Assembly (NCBI GenBank): GCA_030037545.1
Contig: JASHRF010000014.1
Coordinates: forward strand, 1-64,000
DNA from: Acidobacteriaceae bacterium
GTDB taxonomy: Bacteria > Acidobacteriota > Terriglobia > Terriglobales > Acidobacteriaceae
DNA length: 64,000 nt
Direction of reading: 5' to 3'
The notes below the pieces were generated by a model. The model worked only from the letters and a program-made list of their open reading frames with translations, ran no database searches and was not told the DNA's origin. The translations under genes and the position numbers were made by a program. Below, piece by piece: positions 3,096 to 60,631 of this stretch; within the stretch, counting starts at the first letter, position 1, and each line of letters starts with the position of its first letter.

Positions 3096-5087
3096 TTACC
3101 GGCTGGCGGCGATCATCTGCGCGGCGTGCTGGAGGCTGGCGTCGGTTACCTTGGCGCCGCTGAGCATTCTTGCCACTTCATGGGTGCGGGCGCGGTCGTC
3201 CAAGACGCGAATCTGGGTCTTGGTGCGGCCCCGGTCTTCACGCTTTTCCACGGCCAAGTGCTGGTCGGCGAAGGCCGCGATCTGCGGTAAATGCGTGACG
3301 CACAGGACCTGCTGGGCGCGGCCCAGGGCTTTGAGCTTGTGGCCGACGGCTTCGGCGGCGCGGCCGCCGATGCCGATGTCGATTTCGTCGAAGACCAGAG
3401 TGCGCGGCGTGGGTTTTTTCCTGGATTTGGACGAAGTTTCTTCTACTGCAACTTTGAGGGCCAGCATGACGCGGCTCAGCTCGCCGCCGGAGGCGATCTC
3501 GACGAGCGGTTTCAATGGCTCTCCGGGGTTGGTGGCGATGCGATATTCGACCTGGTCCCAGCCGGAAGCGGTCCAGCGGGAGGTTTCGACCGGTCCCTCA
3601 GGGGCTAAAGCCTCACCTTTTTGCTGCGGCGCAATGTACGGGCTAAAGCCCGTACCCCTCACTCCTCCAGCCTTATCGGCACGGCTGAAGTCGTGCCCTT
3701 TCAAGACTTGGCCTTGGCCGGTTCCTTCAGGGGCTAAAGCCCTCGAATCCTGTTGGGGCTTATCGGCACGCGACCCGTTGAAGCGGGTTCCCCGAATGTC
3801 CTCTCTCAAAATTTCGCCTGGGCCCGGGCCTGAAGACCCTGGCTTTGTTCCCGTTTGGTTATCAGGGCTAAAGCCCCGACCCGCTTCCGCTGAAACCTCT
3901 CCTACCGGGCTCACGCCAACTTCGAAGCGGGCCTTCATGGCCAGAGAGTTGATCTGGGCTTGGGCGAGCTTGGCGAGGCGGGCGGCGGCGGAGCGACGCT
4001 CGGCGGTGAGCGCGGTTGCGGCTGCGCAATATTCTTTTGACGCCTGTTCGAGGGAGGCACGCAGAGCCTTCAGGATCTCGTCGCGGTCTTCCACTTCGCT
4101 CAATTTGCGAGCTACATCTTCGCCAAACGCAATGACCTCGGCAACGGTCTTGCCGTACTTGCGCTTGAGGCGATCGAGCAGGGCGAGGCGATCTTCAATG
4201 TCGGCGAGGCGCTCGGGGCTGGCGTTGATGCTTTCGGCGTAGTCACGCAGCGTGGCGCCGATATCCGCCACAATGGCGCGCGCCGACGCTAGCTGCTGGG
4301 CGGATTCGTTGAAGCGCAAGTCGTAGCGGGCCAGCTCCTCCACGTTGCGCAGCGCGCCGCGAAGCGCAGCTTCAGCACTGGCGCCACCTTCGTAAAGCTG
4401 GTCGAAGGCGCTCATGGCGGCGGCGTAGAGTTTCTCCGCATTGGCGAGGACGCGCTTTTCGGTTTCGAGGGCTTCGTCTTCGCCGGGCTCCAAATGCGCG
4501 GCATCGATTTCTTTTGCCTGGTAGCTCCACAGATCGACCATGCGCAGGCGGTCCTGCTCGCCCTGAAGCAGGTCGTCGAGCTTTTGCTGCGCGGCGCGCC
4601 AGTGAGCGTACGCCGCTTCAAGCGCGTCAGTGGAAATGCCGCCGAAGCGATCGAGAAGAATGCGCTGCTGGGCCTGGTCGAAGCTGTTGAGCGTCTCAGT
4701 CTGCGCGTGGACCAGAGCCAGCTCCGGCGCCAGTTCCTTGAGCACGGCGACGGTAGCGGGCTGGTTGTTGACGAAGACGCGTCCCTTGCCGGTGGAAAGA
4801 ATTTCGCGGCGCAGGATGATCTCAGCGCCCTCGGAGTCGATGCCGTTGGCTTCAAGGATGGCTTCTGCACCGGGGGAGGACTCGAAGACACAGGAAACCA
4901 CGGCTTTTTCCGCGCCGTGGCGGACGAGGTCGACCGAAGACTTGCCGCCCATGAGGAGCGCGAGCGCGTCGACGAGGATGGATTTGCCGGCGCCGGTTTC
5001 GCCTGTGAGCAGGTTGAGGCCGGGGCCAAAGGAGGCGATGGCGTGATCGATGACGGTGTAGTTTTCAGCGCGCAGCTCGACGAGCAT
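3096..5087 (-). CDS. recN: DNA repair protein RecN with a ~100-residue repeat-derived insertion
   Basis: An SMC-like ATPase that helps organise broken DNA ends in recombinational repair. Walker A GETGAGKS is at residues 29-36, long coiled-coil arms fill the middle, the ABC signature ASGGELSRVMLALK follows, and Walker B is LVFDEIDIG. ATG 5087 (MLVELRAENY) gives the canonical RecN N-terminus; the open frame extends further upstream without family similarity. The predicted length is 663 residues, whereas RecN is normally about 550-570. The excess lies between the strand FEVGVS (about residue 390) and GWDQVEYRIATNPGE (about 508), where homologues have a short loop. The insert is the in-frame translation of several copies of an intergenic repeat. 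Key motifs on both sides are intact, so the protein may still work. Confidence 0.93.
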   Translation of the reverse strand: MLVELRAENYTVIDHAIASFGPGLNLLTGETGAGKSILVDALALLMGGKSSVDLVRHGAEKAVVSCVFESSPGAEAILEANGIDSEGAEIILRREILSTGKGRVFVNNQPATVAVLKELAPELALVHAQTETLNSFDQAQQRILLDRFGGISTDALEAAYAHWRAAQQKLDDLLQGEQDRLRMVDLWSYQAKEIDAAHLEPGEDEALETEKRVLANAEKLYAAAMSAFDQLYEGGASAEAALRGALRNVEELARYDLRFNESAQQLASARAIVADIGATLRDYAESINASPERLADIEDRLALLDRLKRKYGKTVAEVIAFGEDVARKLSEVEDRDEILKALRASLEQASKEYCAAATALTAERRSAAARLAKLAQAQINSLAMKARFEVGVSPVGEVSAEAGRGFSPDNQTGTKPGSSGPGPGEILREDIRGTRFNGSRADKPQQDSRALAPEGTGQGQVLKGHDFSRADKAGGVRGTGFSPYIAPQQKGEALAPEGPVETSRWTASGWDQVEYRIATNPGEPLKPLVEIASGGELSRVMLALKVAVEETSSKSRKKPTPRTLVFDEIDIGIGGRAAEAVGHKLKALGRAQQVLCVTHLPQIAAFADQHLAVEKREDRGRTKTQIRVLDDRARTHEVARMLSGAKVTDASLQHAAQMIAASR
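3592..3888 (-). repeat. Composite GGCTAAAGCC-type repeat embedded in recN
   Basis: Inside recN are several modules seen elsewhere only between genes: GGGGCTAAAGCCTC near 3601, the palindromic ACGGGCTAAAGCCCGT near 3639-3654, GGCACGGCTGAAGTCGTGCC at 3678-3697, TCAGGGGCTAAAGCCCTC near 3728-3745, a diverged GCGACCCGTTGAAGCGGGTT near 3769-3788, and AGGGCTAAAGCCCCG near 3864-3878. The array adds no stop codon in the recN frame. Translated it gives peptides such as SRALAPEG, HDFSRADKAGG and GTGFSPYI. The intergenic relatives in this window are at 7570, 19703, 22727 and 60561. Confidence 0.85.
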
Positions 5088-7494: not shown

Positions 7495-7569
7495 GGCCGG
7501 TATCTTCGGATATTCGGCTTTTGGATTACGGCGTTCCTAAAACGCTATGGGAGTTTGCGGGGAATGAAT

Positions 7570-7645
7570 CTTCCCTCAGGGGCCAAGGCCCCGATGATTT
7601 TGTCCTGCGCGATGTATGGGCTGAAGGCCGTACCCTTCAAGGTAC
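7570..7645. repeat. GGCTAAAGCC-family intergenic repeat upstream of tolB
   Basis: Contains CCTCAGGGGCCAAGGCCCC (7574-7592), then TGTCCTGCGCGATGTATGGG and CTGAAGGCCGTACCC. The layout parallels the module at about 3597-3657 inside recN (CTCAGGGGCTAAAGCC, then GCGGCGCAATGTACGGGCTAAAGCCCGTACCC read in shorter pieces). The open frame of tolB extends through it, but that extension is not family-like. Confidence 0.75.
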
Positions 7646-7743
7646 CGAGTGGTTACCTTTCGCCGCGCGCCACGTCATGGAAGAGGGTCTCCCGCGCGCG
7701 CAGACCGAGGTTTCGTTACCCATCAGGAAGGACTGCCGATCGC

Positions 7744-9087
7744 ATGAAGGCAAAGTTGCGTTGTTTGCCTGTGATTTTGTTATGCCTGGTTTTTTTTCAG
7801 GCGCCCCGCATCCTGGCGCAGGACTGGGTTCACACCGGAACCAATCTGGGCAACTCGGCCATCCGACTGGCGGTTGCCGACTTCAAGCCGGTGGGCGCGG
7901 ATCCGCAAACGCCTGCGCTCAAGGCGGTCTTCGATGCGACTCTCTATAACGATCTGAACAACGCCGGCATCTTCGACATGGTATCGAAGAGCCTGGCGCC
8001 GCAGGCCATGCCCGGCTCGCCGCAGGAGATGGTGCTCAGCCAGTGGTCGGCCATGCCGGCCAGCGCGGCCATGGTAGCGTTTGGCGCTTTCTCGGTAACC
8101 AACGGACGGCTGGTGGTCTACGGCTGGCTCGACGATGCGAACAACGCCGCCAGCCCCCAGGTGCTGGCGCAGCAATACAACGAAAACGCCACGGAAGAGA
8201 TGGCGCGGACCATTGCACACAGATTTGCGGACGCCATCATCTACCGGCTGGGCGGGGGCATCAACGGCATTGCCGAGACCAAGATTTACTTTGTGAGCTC
8301 GCGCACCGGATCGAAGGAAATCTGGGAGATGGACTACGACGGCGAAAATCAGCACCAGCTCACACATCTGGGAACCATTTCGATGTCCCCCCACGTCTCG
8401 CCCGATAATTCGCGAGTGGCGTTTGATTCCCTGGAACGCGAGGGATGGGCGATCCGCATGTACTCGCTCGATCTGAGCCGGCTTGTGAGCTTCCCGGCGG
8501 GGGCGCCGGGCGGCAGCAATTACAGCCCTGCTTGGACTTCCGACGGAACCAGGGTCGCGTTTTCTTCTGCGCGCGGCGGGCATCCGGATATCTGGACGTG
8601 CGATGTGGGCGGCAGCAACCTGCACCGCATCACCTCGTTCGGCACGGATACGTCCCCGGTGTGGAATCCGCGCACCAATGCGCAGATCGCATTTGTGAGC
8701 GGGCGCACCGGAGAGCCGCAGATTTATACCATGGACCAGGACGGATCGAACGTGCAGCGCATGACGGACAGCGGCTACGCGGTGTCGCCTTCGTGGTCGC
8801 CAAGCGGCGGCCTGCTTACCTTCAGCTGGAATCGCAAATACGGCCCCGGCGATCCCGGTGGCCAGGACATCTATGTGTTCCAGATTGCCTCCATGCAGTG
8901 GTTGCAGGCCACGCACGAGTCCGGGAGTAACGATTTTCCATCCTGGTCGCCGGATGGGCGGCACATTGCGTTTGAGCGCACCATTGGCGGCCGCACGCAG
9001 ATTTGGTCGATGCTGGCCGACGGCACGCATCAGCAGCAGTTAACCCACACCGGGAACAATTACATGCCCGACTGGAGCTGGAAGTAA
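7744..9087 (+). CDS. tolB: Tol-Pal system beta-propeller protein TolB
   Basis: Periplasmic protein that binds Pal and takes part in outer-membrane constriction during division. ATG 7744 gives a clear signal peptide (VILLCLVFFQAPRILAQ) and a 447-residue product, the usual TolB size; AGGAAGGA lies about 11 nt upstream. The N-terminal domain (about 30-150, starting NSAIRLAVADFKP) is followed by a propeller of PD40 blades, for example KEIWEMDYDGENQHQLT, SPAWTSDGTRVAFSS, TSPVWNPRTNAQIAFVS and FPSWSPDGRHIAFE. The reading frame is open for another 60 codons upstream, but these translate the 7570-7645 repeat and should not be included. Confidence 0.95.
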   Translation: MKAKLRCLPVILLCLVFFQAPRILAQDWVHTGTNLGNSAIRLAVADFKPVGADPQTPALKAVFDATLYNDLNNAGIFDMVSKSLAPQAMPGSPQEMVLSQWSAMPASAAMVAFGAFSVTNGRLVVYGWLDDANNAASPQVLAQQYNENATEEMARTIAHRFADAIIYRLGGGINGIAETKIYFVSSRTGSKEIWEMDYDGENQHQLTHLGTISMSPHVSPDNSRVAFDSLEREGWAIRMYSLDLSRLVSFPAGAPGGSNYSPAWTSDGTRVAFSSARGGHPDIWTCDVGGSNLHRITSFGTDTSPVWNPRTNAQIAFVSGRTGEPQIYTMDQDGSNVQRMTDSGYAVSPSWSPSGGLLTFSWNRKYGPGDPGGQDIYVFQIASMQWLQATHESGSNDFPSWSPDGRHIAFERTIGGRTQIWSMLADGTHQQQLTHTGNNYMPDWSWK

Positions 9088-11430: not shown

Positions 11431-13017
11431 TTAGAACTGGGGGGGATTTGCGGGCAGCGCCGAGGAGTTTATATCTTCGCAACTTGCGTTATTGACGGTT
11501 AAATTACCCTGGCTGTCGAGCGAAACCGTCCAGATGGTGTCGTAATCCAATCCCGGCCAACCGGGGGCGACCGGCGCACCACCGGAGGGATAAAAGCTTG
11601 CAATCAGCGCATTGACGGTGGCGACAATCTGCAGGTGTTCCCACGCAGCCAGAACTTTCTGGTTGGAAAATTCCCCGCCCGTAAAAAAGAAATTGCTCGC
11701 CTGCTGCGGACCGTCGGAGGCAAGGGCCTCGACGCCCGCGGCAAAATTGAAAGGCAGATTGTTGGCGACAGCGTAAGGTTCCACTGTCAAGGCCGCCCTG
11801 ACATAAGACCAATCTTCATCTCCCGCGGTGTTCTGCGTGCCTAAGGTTACCTGGGATGGGTCAATCGAATAGACCTGACCTACGAAGATTTTGCCTCGCA
11901 GCGCAGCAGGAAGGTCAAGAGCGCGCCATTGGCCGGCGCCGACATAATTTCCGTCGTTCCAATTCCCCTCGGGATGAGCCTCAGCGTGGCGGATCATGTA
12001 GAGGGTTTCATTGGTGTTGATCCCCGCCGGGATCTTGGCTCCGCTTTTGCCGCCTGTGACCGTAATGTTGAAAGGCGTTTGCCCGGTGCACGAGCTGGTG
12101 GTCGGCACGGGCGCGGGCAAAACGGGGTACGTGGAAGACGGCTGCACGCCGGTGTCGTAGGTAAGCAGGCTGGCAGCTTTCGTCGACGGGACAATTGAGA
12201 TGGCGTAGATAGTGTTGGGACCTTGATAGCTAGCCGGGAGACTCAGGTTATAGCCTTCCAGGTTATTGATGCTTGCCATCAAGTTGCCGACAGTTTCCCA
12301 TGGCGCCGAGAAGACATAGAAGCCAGGCTGGTTCGCTTTTATCATCCCGGTCACCAGCGCCTCGTTATCGCCTCCCTCGTCATTGAAATCGATTCCCTGG
12401 CAGGCCGGACAAGACGGCGTGGGCGTGGCGACGCCCGCGGGCAGAGGCTCGGAAGCGTATGAGGCGTTGAGCGGATAGCTATTGGCCGTGTACGGGCTTG
12501 CGTAAGAACCGGAAACGGTGGAGAGCGTGAATTGATTCAGCAGAGCGAACTGTTGGATTGTCCAGAGCGGGACGATGTCAGGATAGTTGTTTGCGGTCTG
12601 CAGATGGGTCATCGGTTCGAGAGCATAAATGCCGGTGACATTGTTCGATCCGAGGATCTGGACTTGGAGGAACTTCGCCATCGACAGCGTGCGCTGCAAG
12701 CCCTGGCTGGTGAGGTTGGCCGTTGACGGGTTGATATCTCCGGAAGCCTGGTACGACACATCGTCGCTTACTACGAAGATCAGATTGACGTTGCCGGCGC
12801 TGAGTGGAGCGGTCGACGAAGTGCTGCCGCCACCACCGCCCGTGCCGCCGCTGCCTCCTGTTCCGCCACTGCCGCCCGCGCCATTGTTGCCTCCTGTGCT
12901 CGTGCTGTTGGCGGCGGACGATCCGCATCCGATCAATACGGCCGGAAGCAGCAGGGCGAAGACAACGGCTAGAGCAGAAACTCTTCCGCACTGTCCCGAA
13001 AAGCCTGCTGATCTCAT
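11431..13017 (-). CDS. Lipoprotein with two histidine-phosphatase-like halves, first half degenerate
   Basis: ATG 13017 gives a 528-residue protein with a lipoprotein signal (ALLLPAVLIGC, Cys31) and a Gly/Ser/Thr linker (to about residue 70). The second half (about 335-480) carries MIRHAEAHPEGNW, the RHG/RHAE motif of the histidine phosphatase (phosphoglycerate-mutase-like) superfamily with His344, and later KVLAAWEHLQIVATVNALI, where His461 is at the expected second-histidine position. The first half (about 75-255) follows the same pattern (LTSQGLQRTLSMAKFL; IYALEPMTHLQTANNYP; FYVFSAPWETVGNLMASI), but the catalytic RH is SDD and the second His is missing. I infer an internal duplication with an inactive N-terminal copy. 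Substrate unknown. The gene is convergent to cpoB and stands alone. Confidence 0.72.
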   Translation of the reverse strand: MRSAGFSGQCGRVSALAVVFALLLPAVLIGCGSSAANSTSTGGNNGAGGSGGTGGSGGTGGGGGSTSSTAPLSAGNVNLIFVVSDDVSYQASGDINPSTANLTSQGLQRTLSMAKFLQVQILGSNNVTGIYALEPMTHLQTANNYPDIVPLWTIQQFALLNQFTLSTVSGSYASPYTANSYPLNASYASEPLPAGVATPTPSCPACQGIDFNDEGGDNEALVTGMIKANQPGFYVFSAPWETVGNLMASINNLEGYNLSLPASYQGPNTIYAISIVPSTKAASLLTYDTGVQPSSTYPVLPAPVPTTSSCTGQTPFNITVTGGKSGAKIPAGINTNETLYMIRHAEAHPEGNWNDGNYVGAGQWRALDLPAALRGKIFVGQVYSIDPSQVTLGTQNTAGDEDWSYVRAALTVEPYAVANNLPFNFAAGVEALASDGPQQASNFFFTGGEFSNQKVLAAWEHLQIVATVNALIASFYPSGGAPVAPGWPGLDYDTIWTVSLDSQGNLTVNNASCEDINSSALPANPPQF

Positions 13018-19702: not shown

Positions 19703-19776
19703 TCCTCAGCAGCTAAAGCCGCGCCCATTCTGCGGCCACTTTTGGCACAGGTGGCCCCTCGTGCCCTTTCAAAGCC
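19703..19776. repeat. GGCTAAAGCC-family repeat upstream of hom
   Basis: TCCTCAGCAGCTAAAGCCGC followed by TTTTGGCACAGGTGGCCCC and TCGTGCCCTTTCAAAG. The order (CCTCAG, NGCTAAAGCCN, TTGGCAC, GTGCCCTTTCAAA) is the same as in the copies at 22727 and 60561, with a diverged right stem. Confidence 0.7.
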
Positions 19777-19887
19777 CCGAGCTTCTCGCAAGCTTTGAAG
19801 CCGGTACGTCGATCATGCGCCGGATTGGCCTGCAACTTCCGCGCACTTTGCGAGATATGGCGCGACTCTCGTGTAAGATAAGGAGCA

Positions 19888-22726: not shown

Positions 22727-22796
22727 TCCTCAGAGGCTAAAGCCCCACGTTTTTGGGGAGCTTATTGGCACGGCTGAAGCCGTGCCCTTTCAAAAC
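22727..22796. repeat. GGCTAAAGCC-family repeat after the TonB receptor
   Basis: TTCCTCAGAGGCTAAAGCCCC, a TTTTTGGGGAG spacer, then TTGGCACGGCTGAAGCCGTG and CCCTTTCAAAA. The inner GGCACGGCT/AGCCGTGCC forms a perfect stem. It is the cleanest copy in the window and lies 30 bp after the receptor stop. Confidence 0.85.
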
Positions 22797-22822
22797 AGGG
22801 TTATGAAACAGCTTCTAGCCTT

Positions 22823-60560: not shown

Positions 60561-60631
60561 TCCCTCAGCGGCTAAAGCCGCATTGATTTGAGACCGCTTA
60601 CGGCACGGCTGAAGCCGGGCCCTTTCAAAAC
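60561..60631. repeat. GGCTAAAGCC-family repeat downstream of polA
   Basis: TCCCTCAGCGGCTAAAGCCG, a 22-bp spacer, GGCACGGCTGAAGCCGGGCC and CTTTCAAAA. Nearly the same as the copy at 22727. It lies between polA (leftward, ending at 60660) and tRNA-Leu. Confidence 0.85.

Follow-up and report, generated by a model that had tools for sequence, protein, structure and literature searches.

The closest described systems are palindromic repeats that have entered reading frames. The Rickettsia palindromic elements RPE-1, RPE-4 and RPE-6, described by Ogata and Claverie, are inserted in frame and translated within many conserved genes and also occur between genes (PMC3733652). Intragenic REPs of the GTAG/CGTC type lie in frame too, many of them in replication or repair genes (uvrA, uvrB, recBCD, dnaE2); clusters of intragenic REPs encode 43 to 82 aa, and two Xanthomonas species have a REP at roughly the same place in recB (PMC3733652). 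The text of that paper does not mention recN, but it does mention tyrosine transposases of Koribacter and other Acidobacteria. Atypical REPs that have no foot have been described, and atypical hairpins surround class 3 genes of Acidobacteria (PMC6006769). The recN gene of Coxiella shares its last 7 bp with an overlapping MITE (PMC5896051). In the open-access papers that we searched, we found neither the element family reported below nor an invasion of recN described.

Here we analyze a 64,000-nucleotide stretch of DNA (the window) on contig C43 of an Acidobacteriaceae genome of 4.17 Mb, assembled in 128 contigs and 88.7% complete. It is compared here with relatives from the Terracidiphilus/Occallatibacter group of the Acidobacteriaceae, most of whose genomes are metagenome-assembled.

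Results

The recN gene and its insert

The window recN lies on the minus strand and is about 104 codons longer than in most congeners, whose RecN has 560 aa. The mechanically called ORF reaches 5588 and RecN homology begins at 5084; between 3096 and 5084 the frame is open and holds zero internal stops, as the first-pass annotation of the window had reported. Against the NCBIfam recN model TIGR00634, the protein scored 487.9 bits (cut-off for a RecN equivalog, 407.85 bits), with the match split into two stretches. Walker A, the ABC signature and Walker B had been called intact, and GETGAGKS, SGGELSR and VFDEID are indeed conserved in the RecN alignment, with the ATPase motifs intact in the window RecN. 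The additional 104 codons follow a strand whose end is near residue 393 and precede W504, at about 3579-3908 in plus-strand coordinates. The insert had originally been placed at 3592-3888, which is correct as to its existence and slightly narrow as to its extent. It comprises six clear hairpin modules, with centers near 3602, 3640, 3688, 3731, 3780 and 3868, and a decayed seventh near 3830, all of a repeat that is otherwise mostly intergenic; the earlier count of at least six modules is borne out. The features are as follows.

3096..5084, minus strand: recN, 662 aa, with insert, identified by NCBIfam TIGR00634 and an alignment of 61 RecN sequences
3579..3908, minus strand: insert region, about 104 codons beyond the 49-residue loop of 47 congeners (a loop length that depends on the boundaries we chose)
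3596..3617, plus strand: module of hairpin 1 type (CCTCAGGGGCTAAAGCC), read as ALAPEG
3636..3655, plus strand: module GTACGGGCTAAAGCCCGTAC with an 8-bp stem and TAAA loop, read as GTGFSPY
3672..3708, plus strand: module of hairpin 2 type (CTTATCGGCACGGCTGAAGTCGTGCCCTTTCAAG), read as LKGHDFSRADK
3725..3743, plus strand: module of hairpin 1 type, read as RALAPEG
3766..3794, plus strand: module of diverged hairpin 2 type (ACCCGTTGAAGCGGGT), read as GTRFNGSRADK
3820..3839, plus strand: probable decayed seventh module (CCGGGCCTGAAGACCC), recognized by eye in the sequence; the corresponding stretch of locus L091 retains it
3862..3879, plus strand: module TCAGGGCTAAAGCCCCGA, read as RGFSPDN, also present in the recN insert of L091

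In the coding direction, the insert reads RGFSPDN, GTRFNGSRADK, RALAPEG, LKGHDFSRADK, GTGFSPY and EALAPEG, each peptide stemming from a hairpin with a CTRAAG-type core, and the decayed hairpin reads GSSGPGP. With at most one mismatch allowed, GGGCTDAAGCCC matched 10 times across the window, compared with 1.15 matches expected by chance. Seven of the 10 match rows are inside the recN insert, where they represent four sites, some counted on both strands.

Three other descriptions of the insert were considered and set aside. Tandem Repeats Finder reported no tandem array there, and the modules are dispersed hairpins. No Pfam or NCBIfam domain matched up to E 10. The single-strand fold of the whole insert had a z of only -1.35, and we claim no overall fold beyond the local hairpins. 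Elsewhere in the window, short GC-rich tandem repeats with periods of 18 and 36 occupy 12825-12897.

We modeled the window RecN with AlphaFold2 using 61 RecN sequences. Because the N-terminal ATPase half of the model is of low confidence, only its local topology was used. The model places the insert between strands 386-393 and 510-517 of a predicted beta-hairpin, in agreement with the earlier proposal of a flexible loop between two beta strands, and pLDDT is about 30 for residues 404-497; the insert is probably disordered. The position that aligns with it in the RecN of D. radiodurans (4AD8) is occupied by a short loop flanked by two conserved segments.

The repeat element and its link to RAYT genes

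The six clear modules match intergenic elements. The first-pass proposal that the extra codons of recN are an intergenic repeat lying in frame in a tolerated beta-hairpin loop is supported. The element is laid out as CCTCAG-NGGCTAAAGCCN, a spacer, and then GGCACGGCTGAAGCCGTGCC-CTTTCAAA. A full intergenic unit consists of CCTCAG, the hairpin NGGC-TAAA-GCCN, a spacer of about 20-25 bases, the hairpin GGCACGGC-TGAA-GCCGTGCC, and finally CCCTTTCAAA; an alternative hairpin form is GTACGGGC-TAAA-GCCCGTAC. Outside the recN insert, the following copies were found in the window.

22727..22797, plus strand: complete two-hairpin element of the insert-repeat family, intergenic
60561..60630, plus strand: complete two-hairpin element of the insert-repeat family, intergenic
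19703..19780, plus strand: degenerate intergenic copy
7570..7650, plus strand: copy immediately before a tolB-like ORF or within its over-called 5′ end

All four had been listed as intergenic sites; the first two stand as complete copies and the third as a degenerate one, while that at 7570 was reassigned to the 5′ part of the tolB-like ORF, which is over-called. The repeat copy at 7555-7660 could lead automatic annotation to give TolB a false, repeat-encoded N-terminus.

A search of the genome with the strict hairpin core detected 58 copies, compared with 0 in the reversed control. In a 772-kb sample of the genome, 29 of 36 hairpin-2 copies (control, 0) and 19 of 25 hairpin-1 copies were intergenic, as called by a simple home-made gene caller for which several "inside" copies are over-called gene starts. 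The repeat thus has the high copy number, the short imperfect palindromes and the mainly extragenic location of REPs. Inspection of the copies revealed no canonical 5′ GTAG (GT[AG]G) foot; they start with CCTCAG and end with CCCTTTCAAA. The best explanation is a REP-like, non-autonomous, two-hairpin element of about 70 bp. Using a 30-residue consensus peptide, we detected the element in 32 of the 36 genomes of the genus. The peptide is rare outside the genus, with a match in nine of 121 genomes drawn from the class, six of them in Acidobacteriaceae.

RAYT, also called TnpA-REP, is an HUH single-strand transposase. The host genome contains seven matches to Y1_Tnp (PF01797), two of which, on contigs C18 and C108, encode RAYT-like proteins that have intact HUH motifs and carry the motifs MPDHxHLLL and NPVK. 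Copies of the element flank both of these genes on both sides in a REPtron-like arrangement. In the flanks retrieved for the other Y1 genes examined (L137-L140 and L142), we saw no copy of the element core. Y1 genes occur in 35 of the 36 genus genomes. Given that two RAYT/Y1 genes are bracketed by element copies, RAYT probably spreads the element, and this gene neighborhood makes mobilization by RAYT likely. The frame of the C18 RAYT gene (L181, about 7855-8385) stops within the adjoining repeat, so its last residues, PQGLKPLGNGPAYGTTKVVPFQNR, are repeat-encoded.

Recurrence at the recN loop

We compared 71 recN loci, namely the window's own and 70 from a scan of named genomes. The loop was exactly 49 residues long in 47 of them, outgroups included, and four had 4-5 extra residues, while 20 carried at least 12 extra residues (12-104 aa) at the same loop. 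A long loop is thus missing from most relatives, and where one is present it carries the same repeat and not an unrelated sequence. All recognizable inserts are in one strand and one reading frame (LKGHGFSRAE...GALAPEG, GTGFSPY). When the 20 inserts were pooled, the coding frame had 0 stops in 1,080 codons, and the other five frames had 40, 42, 51, 8 and 32; the stop-free frame is as expected under selection for intact RecN. Module types vary by lineage, the GTGFSPY type being found in L043 and the LKGHGFSRA type in L039, and the inserts of L090, L087 and L038 have decayed to barely recognizable, unrelated-looking peptides. The recN insert of L033:2998-4881 contains tandem copies of a hairpin-2 unit about 50 bp long, indicating local duplication after insertion. 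In the pairs with and without insert that we compared, the loop flanks were too diverged to define a target-site duplication.

In a RecN phylogeny that leaves out the insert, the outgroups are insert-free and presence or absence changes 13 times, a count that does not tell gain from loss; at least seven of the changes are forced by strongly supported branches. Because L001 and L091 share the first module with its spacer and flank at matching positions, some inserts are inherited, the independent gains probably number fewer than 13, and loss or horizontal exchange must occur. The shared module, as well as the constant orientation and frame wherever the repeat is recognizable, would also fit a single ancient insertion that was inherited and then lost in many lineages by recombination with insert-free alleles. 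We consider this history unlikely. With insert-free loops all exactly 49 aa and outgroups without an insert, it would need many precise losses, and it is further opposed by the changes on strongly supported branches, by the different module types in L043 and L039, and by uvrC and mtaB, which likewise re-use the same site. The fairest statement is that the recN loop has experienced several independent gains together with some turnover.

The element inside other genes

We retrieved 33 consensus-peptide matches in long open frames. The repeat is in frame in alaS (two genomes), rsmB, mnmE, copA (two), yoaA, pcrA, mtaB (two, same site), an MsbA-like transporter (two, same site), a RarA-like AAA ATPase, a YdiJ-like dehydrogenase, and mrdA, where it lies in the C-terminal tail. 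It is also in frame in uvrC, in several genomes at one loop and in one genome at another; among the part of the loci that was parsed, species differ in the loop after RRYRRLL, some having 17 residues and others 49-96. The lengthened uvrC loop occurs in L222, L229, L238, L241, L250, L253 and L257, with the same repeat-derived peptides in most. In the host genome, carB (L181:8405-9499, G000:C18) carries a sense-strand copy in frame (PQGLKPAHSGWASSGTAEAAPFQN; PQGLKP...GTAEAAPFQN), and an unnamed 427-aa ORF holds three modules. This carB lies directly downstream of the copy-flanked RAYT gene of C18. The copies in named conserved genes have open frames throughout and are predicted to be translated, a trait of RPEs. 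The list of genes suggests that the element may be over-represented in DNA-repair genes. Counted by eye in frames of at least 400 aa, there were about 39 antisense (LKGHGFSRAE) and about 13 sense matches among the approximately 150 listed for each, which hints at a preferred frame or strand.

Since the element is also within many other conserved genes, RecN is one tolerated site among many. The idea that recN is a special target does not hold, and we rejected a recN-specific function as the main reading. The first-pass suggestion that the insert is domesticated fares little better. Had the repeat-encoded loop been co-opted, a new RecN property, such as a binding partner, regulation or damage-site tethering, would explain why one site is occupied in 20 loci, stop-free and in the same strand and frame where recognizable, and the excess of LKGHGFSRAE over sense matches would fit as well. 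However, 47 congeners do without an insert, insert lengths range from 12 to 104 aa, the inserts of L090, L087 and L038 are decaying with zero sign of gained function, functionally unrelated proteins carry the same element, and the insert is predicted to be fully disordered; stop codons and peptide tolerance can account for the frame and strand bias. Co-option is accordingly improbable. An assembly or binning artefact of the metagenome-assembled genome is very unlikely because, although a 128-contig, 88.7% complete assembly could be misled by short repeats, the 104 codons are open between homologous flanks and 20 of 71 loci, from independent assemblies of several projects, carry the same kind of insert at one loop.

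Discussion

We observed the element, its location in recN, its recurrence there in frame, and the maintenance of that frame. With a probability of roughly 0.8, the best reading is recurrent, tolerated, in-frame invasion of recN by a REP-like element spread by RAYT. The element would have spread, most likely by RAYT, through the genomes of one Acidobacteriaceae genus, with most copies landing between genes and some in coding sequence. There, its own open reading frames, mainly LKGHGFSRAE...GALAPEG on one strand, would allow in-frame translation, and the insertions would survive only in loops at the protein surface where disorder is tolerated. The beta-hairpin loop of RecN would be one such site, repeatedly invaded; the inserted modules would later have been stacked, duplicated in tandem and eroded, some lineages apparently having lost or replaced them. 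In the window RecN, several stacked modules would form a long disordered loop. We infer that the insert is neutral and that RecN is expected to retain its function with it.

A more speculative and rather doubtful extension is that the RAYT-driven REP family acts as a continuing generator of disordered segments, which re-invade the RecN, UvrC and MtaB loops mostly in one frame, and that some inserts have gained a role in repair or translation proteins.

Rickettsia is the best-known host of protein-coding palindromic repeats; the present case adds free-living soil Acidobacteriota and ties the repeats to RAYT genes. It also supplies many natural comparisons with and without insert at the same RecN and UvrC loops. 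A long-standing question, whether mobile repeats are a source of useful protein sequence or are only tolerated, thereby becomes directly testable.

Like the Rickettsia palindromic elements, the acidobacterial repeats are short palindromes in frame within conserved genes, with intergenic copies as well. The likeness is one of behavior; the insert has no NCBIfam or Pfam match up to E 10. In contrast to those elements, the acidobacterial one has a free-living soil host, a two-hairpin unit and linked RAYT genes, and it re-uses one loop across many species. With the intragenic GTAG/CGTC REPs it shares in-frame location within genes, repair genes among them, but its hairpins have TAAA/TGAA loops, no GTAG foot was seen, the array is larger (about 104 aa), and the recurrence is far greater. 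Compared with REP/RAYT (TnpA-REP) systems, REPtrons and REPINs (PMC6006769, PMC2817692, PMC3116915), there is likewise an HUH Y1 gene with hairpin copies on both sides, whereas the canonical 5′ GT[AG]G foot was not seen in the acidobacterial element. The Coxiella MITE is a different situation from an in-frame insert in the recN loop. The acidobacterial repeats appear to be a case of protein-coding REPs, notable for its scale and for the repeated re-use of the same loops.
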